A DNA stretch of 64,000 nucleotides, taken from assembly GCA_019359375.1 (NCBI GenBank), contig JAHHHL010000014.1, positions 62,001-126,000 of the forward strand, in the 5' to 3' direction. The DNA is from Lyngbya sp. HA4199-MV5. Its GTDB lineage: Bacteria > Cyanobacteriota > Cyanobacteriia > Leptolyngbyales > Leptolyngbyaceae. A program made the translations under genes and the position numbers. This document shows positions 53,254 through 54,794 of this stretch, piece by piece. How positions within the stretch are numbered: the first letter of the stretch is position 1; the number at the start of each line of letters is the position of its first letter. The notes beneath the pieces are model-generated. The model was given only the letters and a program-made list of their open reading frames with translations. It ran no database searches and was not told where the DNA came from.

Positions 53254-53760
53254 ATGGACGAGAATGCTGTCTTTCTGGATTTCACGGTAATGCTGACGAT
53301 CGCCCTCACCGCAGACTCGATTAACACGCTTGATCTATCACCGATTCAAACGATCGTAGACTCGCTTCTAAAGCAGGGCAGCCTCGCAACTCACGAACAG
53401 CAGCTTCAGTTTAAGATCGACTATCCTCAAGCGCCGGACGATCCACGCGAACTGCCAGAAATTCCTGAAGTGCGGCTCTGGTTCATTCGACTGGATGCGC
53501 TCTATCCCTGGCTACCATTCTTATTGGACTGGAAAGCAGGCGAGTTAACCCGTTATACAGCCATGCTCGTGCCCCATCAGTTTCATCCCAAAGATGGCAT
53601 TCAGTACAACCCCGAAGCGTTGGAAATCTTCGTGATGCACAAAATCTTTGTGCTGGCGACCTGGATGCAGCAACACGGCATGGACGGCAACGCTCGACTC
53701 AAAGCCATGACTCAAATGTTTGGCTATGAGATTGATAGTGCTTTTTTTGATTTGTTGTAG
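53254..53760 (+). CDS. CRR6-like protein (DUF1817), NDH-1 assembly factor
   Basis: A 168-residue protein; ATG 53290 (156 residues) is an equally plausible start. EQQLQFKIDYPQAPDDPREL, then EIPEVRLWFIRLDALYPWLPFLLDWKAGE and IQYNPEALEIFVMHKIFVL are the conserved core of the cyanobacterial/chloroplast CRR6 family, which in plants helps assemble the NDH-I subunit into the photosynthetic NDH-1 complex. In cyanobacteria the homologue plays the same role. No membrane segment, consistent with a cytoplasmic maturation factor. AGAGG is three bases before the upstream ATG, so the start is unsure. Confidence 0.88.
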   Translation: MDENAVFLDFTVMLTIALTADSINTLDLSPIQTIVDSLLKQGSLATHEQQLQFKIDYPQAPDDPRELPEIPEVRLWFIRLDALYPWLPFLLDWKAGELTRYTAMLVPHQFHPKDGIQYNPEALEIFVMHKIFVLATWMQQHGMDGNARLKAMTQMFGYEIDSAFFDLL

Positions 53761-53896
53761 AACAAACAACAGTCACGAGGACCTTACAGCGCGACCACCA
53801 CTCTAATTGTTTGAATGCTACCCGTCTAGTGCGACTTGTGACCAAATGCTGTGACTAAACGCGATGACCCAAACCCAAGCCAATTCCCTCGTTAGA

Positions 53897-53974
53897 CTAT
53901 TCAATGCGTTCAACAAACAAGGCACAAATCACGGCATAGACAGCAAAAAAAGCAATTCCAACTACGAGTGGCAT
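53897..53974 (-). CDS. 25-residue single-helix membrane peptide
   Basis: A short frame, ATG 53974 to TAG 53897, encodes MPLVVGIAFFAVYAV then ICALFVERIE. AGGAGGA lies seven bases upstream of the ATG (53982-53988), the strongest ribosome site noticed in this window. The peptide is a single hydrophobic helix with a charged C-terminal tail, the form of small photosynthetic, cytochrome-complex or NDH subunits. I cannot match it to a named subunit. It sits alone between the CRR6-like gene and gmhB, on the opposite strand to the former. Real gene status rests on the ribosome site and composition. Confidence 0.6.
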   Translation of the reverse strand: MPLVVGIAFFAVYAVICALFVERIE

Positions 53975-54185
53975 AGGACAATCCTCCTAATGTGCAATCA
54001 CGAAGCTTAAAGGTATATTTTGACCATAAACGAAAGGTCTGAGATTAGTATTCCCCTAGCGGGGGATTATCCTAAAGCTGTTGTGAAAGACATGCCTTTA
54101 CGCTTATTTCAGCACGCTTTAGAACATGTCTACTACCTTCTACTACTGTACTACTACAAGTTGATCAAGCAGCATTCCGGGCAGT

Positions 54186-54794
54186 TTAGATTGAGCCGCC
54201 AACCTGCTGCAAAATCCAATCTGCTGCCTGGGGAAGATCAGAGGCAATAAAGTTTGGCTTAGTGTGGTGCTGGTATGCGCCACTGAGGATGCGATCGCCG
54301 AATCCGGTCTGCACCAAAATACCCGTACAGCCTGCGTTATGAGCCATATCCACATCGGTTGCTTTATCGCCTACCATAAAGCTCGCTTGCAGGTCTAAGT
54401 CGTGATCCCAACAGGCGGCAACGAGCATCCCGGTGTTGGGCTTTCGCCAGGTACTCCAGCAGGTGTAGGCTGGCTCGGTGCCGCCTTCTAGTGCGCTGAG
54501 GTAGGGACAGTAATACAGCGCGTCGAGATAAGCTTCTGCTTCGGTTTGAAGCAAGTGGCAAAGGCGATCGTGCAGTGCGTCTACATGGCTGGCAGGATAA
54601 TATCCCCTGGCAGGTCCCGATTGATTTGAAACTAAGCAGCAGAATAATCCTGCCTCATTCAAGCACCTGACCGCTTGAGCCACACCGGGGATCAGATGGA
54701 GATCGGTTACCTGGCGGATATAGCCAACTTCCTGGTTGAGAACGCCATCACGATCGAGAAAAACGGCTCGTTTTGTCACCCCTAGCTGCTCCAC
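54186..54794 (-). CDS. gmhB: D-glycero-manno-heptose-1,7-bisphosphate 7-phosphatase (GmhB)
   Basis: A 202-residue HAD-IIIA phosphatase. Catalytic Asp14 and Asp16 lie in FLDRDGVLNQ, motif II Ser/Asn in SNQSGPARGYY, motif III Lys in RKPNTGM, and the final acidic residues in VGDKATDV. A zinc loop is suggested by CPYLSALEGG...CWSTW. It makes a heptose-1-phosphate for surface glycan precursors. The gene overlaps the 3' end of the upstream glycosyltransferase by 13 bases, so the two are translationally coupled. Confidence 0.9.
   Translation of the reverse strand: MEQLGVTKRAVFLDRDGVLNQEVGYIRQVTDLHLIPGVAQAVRCLNEAGLFCCLVSNQSGPARGYYPASHVDALHDRLCHLLQTEAEAYLDALYYCPYLSALEGGTEPAYTCWSTWRKPNTGMLVAACWDHDLDLQASFMVGDKATDVDMAHNAGCTGILVQTGFGDRILSGAYQHHTKPNFIASDLPQAADWILQQVGGSI

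Follow-up and report, generated by a model that had tools for sequence, protein, structure and literature searches.

A stretch of DNA from Lyngbya sp. HA4199-MV5 (64,000 nt in its whole length, hereafter the window) carries on its minus strand a 25-codon open reading frame (ORF) which, judged from the comparison of related genes, is a real gene under purifying selection. Its product is apparently a conserved and translated membrane microprotein with a single helix. The corresponding family is scattered in filamentous cyanobacteria, where its distribution is patchy and not universal.

The short ORF and its ribosome site

The coding sequence lies at 53897..53974 (-), terminates with a TAG stop codon and encodes MPLVVGIAFFAVYAVICALFVERIE, a peptide of 25 residues with one helix; the annotation is based on ORF reading, relatives, codon selection and ribosome sites. 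The minus-strand reading agrees with the original prediction of a 25-residue ORF preceded by AGGAGGA at good spacing, as this Shine-Dalgarno (SD) sequence is located at 53982..53988 (-), 7 nt 5' of the ATG. Among the 387 window ORFs of 20-40 aa starting with ATG, a 6-base SD was present in two and a hydrophobic stretch (17 residues, mean hydropathy ≥2.0) in 11. The 25-aa ORF was the sole one to combine both, which is in line with the single hydrophobic helix initially proposed. Double-positive ORFs of this kind averaged 0.0 in first-order Markov surrogates (n = 30), or 0.1 when a 5-base SD was used.

A charged tail had been proposed as well. It is present in the window peptide, which ends in ERIE, but the family as a whole does not keep such a mixed charged tail, since 29 of the 30 members read in one of the families with relatives (f28, see below) have a single E at the C-terminal end and 22 of the 30 contain no Lys or Arg whatever. 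Regarding transcription signals, no match to the sigma-70 consensus was found within 53740-54200, and neither a promoter nor a terminator consensus was found in the window region of the peptide gene. A -10-like stretch, AAAATATACC, was tentatively assigned at 54012..54021 (-) on the basis of its position only, in comparison with TATATT/TATCTT stretches in relatives.

Distribution of the family

Conservation outside the source genome had been named beforehand as the check to be made, and it was found: relatives occur in the window's own family (f1) and in two further cyanobacterial families (f24 and f28), and 48 related loci were read (11 in f1, seven in f24 and 30 in f28). A single-sequence search of 58 genomes gave matches in 13 at E ≤ 10, of which nine, including the window's genome, were kept after reading of the frames, while L009, L012, L013 and L014 in the other four genomes were discarded as chance matches. 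Profile A1 comprised ten sequences, A2 and A3 being extended profiles, and the best profile match to relatives reached an E value of 2.9e-15. With A1, ten of the 42 f1 genomes, representing four genera, were matched at E ≤ 0.01; 18 genomes were matched at E ≤ 1, and the eight failing the 0.01 threshold were left out, as was L048. A class-wide draw of 388 genomes searched with the extended profiles gave matches in 24 at E ≤ 0.1, and 17 of these were kept (ten f1 and seven f24), the seven left out being L089, a partial match, and L092-L097. In f28, profile A3 matched 35 of 192 genomes at E ≤ 0.01, belonging to 13 of 56 genera; with the poorer A2, these 35 were recovered together with seven weaker genomes (42 in all), which missed an E value of 0.01 with A3. 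Finally, in a phylum-wide draw of 386, three genomes were matched with A1 and four with A3, only G000 (the window's genome) and G388 being clear, whereas L100 and L101 were left out on partial matches alone. Absence in the large phylum draw is less secure, because the first pass of large searches admits fewer candidates.

Concerning copy number, 33 of the 35 f28 genomes held a single match, G584 held three and G516 had a second, partial one. The three gene copies of G584 are located on contigs C52, C30 and C29 (L081, L151), and a tandem pair of peptide genes on one strand was observed at G030:C1:3177469-3177666 (L024, L041). No match was obtained in plasmid, phage and viral-contig collections or in PADLOC, where such short queries are insensitive. 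As for viral carriage, 20 pattern matches were obtained, none of which was confirmed.

Evidence for translation and selection

All 48 loci contain short ORFs of 23-33 aa, a size consistent with the earlier expectation that such genes would escape gene finders. The 30 f28 loci are the best scoring of the 35 genomes, with G574, G511, G478, G483 and G548 left out. Counted from the aligned ATG, there are 23 codons in all 30 f28 ORFs and 23-33 in the others, and the frames of certain relatives are open further 5' of the aligned ATG. An SD-like match of 4-6 bases, located 5-10 nt before the aligned start, was found in 47 of the 48 loci, the exception being L023. Uncorrected pN/pS was 0.457 among 29 distinct f28 genes, 0.341 among four genes of the same genus and from 0.24 to 0.36 across three f28 subgroups, these five groupings being partly nested. 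Furthermore, the third codon position was the most variable one in the peptide genes. Y13 and F20 were invariant across 37 aligned members, and a helical face among the conserved residues was not significant (permutation p 0.20).

Genomic neighbourhood

The peptide gene is convergent with crr6 (CRR6 family NdhI maturation factor) at 53254..53760 (+), which is regarded here as context outside the unit. The CRR6-like gene reported next to the ORF on the opposite strand was thus confirmed (Pfam PF08847, 2.2e-75; NCBIfam NF038024, 3e-74), but its adjacency to the peptide was limited to G000, G001 and G002. On the peptide side of the window, a glycosyltransferase family 9 (GT9) gene precedes the gene of a HAD-family hydrolase, which is on the same strand as the peptide and ends 211 nt before its ATG. 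The order glycosyltransferase, HAD and peptide with convergent crr6 is found in the same three genomes only, all of one genus. In G005 the glycosyltransferase, HAD and peptide genes are present, the contig stops at the peptide and the genome yielded no crr6. Crr6 is present in G003, G004 and G006, with no peptide in the expected-strand frames of the adjoining 431-602 nt; in G004 the peptide gene is located away from crr6. The adjacency to crr6 therefore looks like a local coincidence and, because it is not conserved, crr6 is not indicated as a functional partner by synteny. An operon with GT9 and HAD was likewise rejected, its arrangement being confined to the genus.

In f24 and f28, the neighbours of the peptide gene vary from genus to genus while the gene itself persists (neighbour clusters outside the window were read by eye, without profile naming). 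This persistence despite changing neighbours fits a trans-acting subunit.

Upstream elements

Conserved blocks near -165, -95 and -55, counted from the ATG, are common to the f28 loci. For the -95 block, the pattern ATANNCTTTTNAGYAGATG was run against 34 f28 genomes (30 with and four without the peptide) and gave 16 exact matches, 14 of which precede the peptide gene, the remaining two being at G522:C79 and G091:C19; it was the exact match at G584:C29 that exposed the previously unseen third peptide copy of this genome. With one mismatch allowed, specificity was lost, as 10 of 43 further matches were at a peptide gene. In total, 59 matches were obtained at ≤1 mismatch, 24 of them at peptide genes, versus 25 for a reversed control pattern. 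A regulon under the f28 element was rejected, since none emerged when the ≤1-mismatch matches in the 34 genomes were compared with the reversed control. Near -165, many f28 loci carry TAATTCTCTAGACATA, a possible promoter in either orientation.

The element of f1 and f24 is a CCC-loop-GGG dyad with GATGC or a similar sequence at its end. A pattern written post hoc located it ≤180 nt 5' of the gene in 10 of 16 loci; in 500 resampled sets, the same pattern matched 0.49 regions on average and never more than 3. The window version of this element, GGATAATCCCCCGCTAGGGGAATACT at 54047..54072 (-), is a near variant and not among the ten; close variants of it occur at L049, L029 and L031. Alignment of the dyad included 12 of the 16 loci (L025, L030, L090 and L091, with no clear element by eye, were omitted), and in these 12 sequences no pair had changed on both sides. 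In addition, RNAalifold predicted 0 pairs for 15 f28 leaders, one row of which (L072, a shorter locus) had been cut at wrong coordinates. Because neither a consensus fold nor covariation was found, the dyad and the blocks are taken as sequence elements rather than as demonstrated RNA structures. We read them as candidate promoters or operators, and the peptide gene would probably have a promoter of its own. A leader riboswitch was rejected, as Rfam gave none on 20 loci and the window region.

A PsrR1-like tail in part of f28

With a pattern written post hoc, a PsrR1-type terminator hairpin was found ≤150 nt 3' of the peptide in 13 of the 30 f28 loci; it was absent from the window, from all 18 f1 and f24 loci and from the other 17 f28 loci. 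Rfam PsrR1 (RF02701) was matched behind the peptide on the same strand in at least 12 of 31 peptide-bearing f28 genomes, in a scan with stricter filters. At least five of the 31 scored above the gathering score of 42 bits and at least seven more had 29.8-39.8 bits. The PsrR1 match begins 8-52 nt past the peptide profile match in 11 of those listed and 218 nt past it in one; L057 has no hairpin, but a weak Rfam PsrR1 match 218 nt on. In control genomes, sub-cut-off PsrR1 matches were seen in at least 4 of 14, with none above the cut-off among the matches listed. PsrR1-like RNAs are multi-copy in f28, with as many as at least 12 matches per genome at E ≤ 1.

At other loci, represented by the best PsrR1 match of each of 30 f28 genomes (L102-L131), the start of the PsrR1-like RNA coincides in 17 of 30 cases with a psb34-like stop codon, and the two psb34-like proteins tested were both Psb34 by NCBIfam (NF033486). 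As the RNA model begins at the psb34-like stop, PsrR1-like RNAs may be derived from the 3' end of psb34 messages. At L124, the psb34-like frame before the PsrR1-like RNA appears interrupted, its first 24 codons being open. The peptide and the photosystem II assembly gene psb34 thus seem to share a 3' cassette in part of f28, since both precede the PsrR1-like tail. Behind the peptide stop of L064 and L073 there is a GGCGTTAGCTAA-like stretch which elsewhere forms the psb34 end (VS followed by the stop), as if the 3' cassette of psb34 had moved behind the peptide.

Psb34 is reported to associate with CP47-containing photosystem II complexes and apparently competes with HliA/B (PMC9458560). PsrR1 is described as a high-light repressor of genes for phycobiliproteins and photosystem I (PMC12850537). 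In our literature search, PsrR1 paired with ssl1498 or with Psb34 was not found among the matches listed. The photosynthetic link through the PsrR1/psb34-type tail is suggestive and limited to one clade.

Comparison with known families

A resemblance to small subunits of the photosystems, cytochrome b6f or NDH had also been proposed. Kinship with them was not supported, given the absence of any Pfam, NCBIfam or PDB match to such cyanobacterial subunits and the patchy spread. When 37 members were searched against Pfam and NCBIfam with a maximum E of 10, in a search where HMMER filters drop most matches above E 0.1, no model for a cyanobacterial subunit of the photosystems, b6f, NDH, an oxidase or a transporter was matched. 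The PDB gave 0 sequences at E ≤ 10, both by profile and by single sequence. By name, the nearest subunit was mitochondrial NDUF_B12 (one member, E 0.15), a match taken as chance level. DUF7512 (PF24352) was weakly matched in 3 of the 37 members (best E 0.0015), PHROGs gave scattered weak matches (phrog_24434, one member, E 0.0024) and PADLOC gave none for the peptide members. The DUF7512, NDUF_B12 and phrog_24434 matches were set aside, because short hydrophobic sequences give such matches.

PetN, PetL, PsbT and PsaM are small one-helix subunits of a similar length class. The peptide resembles them in length class, single hydrophobic helix and small gene, but it has no profile match, is shorter (the f28 members read have 23 aa) and is patchy instead of near-universal. 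Accessory subunits of the CydX/KdpF type are expected to be encoded in one operon with their large partners. Homology to KdpF, CydX or similar accessory subunits of oxidases or transporters was rejected, as no curated-model match was found in the 37 members. Psb34 (Ssl1498), a photosystem II assembly protein, is similar to the peptide of part of f28 in having a PsrR1-like tail 3' of its gene, whereas it differs in its 56 aa, its longer N-terminal part and, by eye, its upstream region. Homology to the Psb34 helix was also rejected: when A3 was compared by hhalign with nine Psb34-like sequences, the probability was 1.1% over 8 columns.

The transcript ncl0160 is reported to encode a peptide of 23-25 aa and to be present in 83 of 89 genomes, including the 27 heterocystous strains (PMC4734099). 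Its peptide is like ours in length, ribosome site, small transcript and cyanobacterial host, and is set apart by distribution alone, since our peptide is found in 35 of 192 f28 genomes. Norf4 (31 aa) and HliR1 (37 aa) of Synechocystis are likewise one-helix microproteins, for which condition-dependent expression has been described; they differ from the peptide in length and reported distribution and are set apart by these published descriptions alone (PMC5126843). SliP4 (37 aa; PMC12850537) is probably HliR1, judging by length. The peptide family was not found in our literature search and, with ncl0160 distinguished by distribution and Norf4 and HliR1 by description, it is apparently undescribed so far.

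Possible role of the peptide

We lean towards the reading that the peptide is a single-pass microprotein which, within a larger membrane complex, would serve as an accessory or regulatory subunit and be dispensable. Its translation would be driven by the strong ribosome site, the helix would be inserted in either the thylakoid or the plasma membrane, where it would pack against the larger protein complex, and the subunit would tune the assembly, stability or activity of this complex under some condition. The conserved ORF with its ribosome sites and coding selection, the hydrophobic helix in which Y13 and F20 are invariant, the changing neighbours and the conserved upstream element are observed directly, whereas membrane insertion and binding to a partner are deduced from them. 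The absence of a fixed neighbour pointing to a partner and of a significant helical face speaks against this reading, as do the loss of specificity of the f28 element at one mismatch and the missing promoter and terminator consensus in the window region. More tentatively, and with less than even confidence, the condition may be light acclimation and the partner part of the photosynthetic apparatus, a narrower form which draws on the 3' tail of PsrR1/psb34 type that some f28 loci carry. Against the light link, the PsrR1-type hairpin was not found in the window, f1, f24 or 17 of the 30 f28 loci.

The main functional rival is that the peptide belongs to a type I toxin-antitoxin pair as its hydrophobic toxin; an overlapping antisense RNA would silence it, and the upstream blocks would be elements of a leader or of the antitoxin promoter. 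The size of the peptide, its single helix, intergenic site and patchy spread would suit such a toxin, as would the tandem copies of G030, the three copies of G584 and the several conserved upstream blocks in f28. However, 33 of the 35 f28 genomes have one match only, and the lone acidic residue at the C-terminal end of 29 of the 30 f28 members is at odds with the basic or aromatic tails of type I toxins. The f28 leader, moreover, showed no consensus RNA fold (15 rows, one faulty), and nothing was matched in plasmids, phages, viral contigs or PADLOC, a result weakened by the insensitivity of short queries. We thus consider a toxin quite unlikely. Even less credit is given to the view that an RNA, either an sRNA or a leader, is the conserved entity and the reading frame incidental. 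The conserved non-coding upstream blocks and the PsrR1-like 3' tail in part of f28 could be explained in this way, but the excess of third-position changes, the pN/pS values (none of the five groupings reaching 0.5), the conserved start and SD, the amino-acid profile that carries the homology across families and the lack of a consensus fold make it highly improbable.

A further alternative is a constitutive structural role within a known complex, be it photosystem I or II, cytochrome b6f, NDH-1, an oxidase or a transporter. The peptide resembles PetN, PsbT and CydX in length and one-helix form, and crr6 adjoins its gene in three genomes. Core photosynthetic subunits are near universal in oxygenic cyanobacteria, and the same would be expected here, whereas the peptide was found in 35 of 192 f28 genomes and gave one clear match beyond the window's genome in the phylum draw of 386. 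The 37 members have no profile match to such cyanobacterial families and no PDB match, and the adjacency to crr6 is not conserved. The core-subunit version is therefore disfavoured, and a constitutive structural role in general appears unlikely, if somewhat less so than a toxin. A looser photosynthetic link nevertheless survives through the PsrR1/psb34-type tail in part of f28.

Whatever its role, the peptide represents an apparently undescribed family of one-helix microproteins, the shortest of 23 residues, in a size range to which standard annotation is blind. The patchy spread provides strains with natural presence or absence of the gene for comparison, and the 3' tail common to psb34 and the peptide in part of f28 is a concrete lead to light acclimation. 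SgrS/SgrT is a dual-function RNA. As a rather speculative extension, to which we assign a low probability, a single short transcript in some f28 members might yield both a peptide acting on a photosynthetic membrane complex and a PsrR1-type 3' RNA, of the kind found at the end of psb34 messages, repressing antenna or photosystem messages. If true, such a dual-job transcript would be a cyanobacterial counterpart of dual-function RNAs like SgrS/SgrT.
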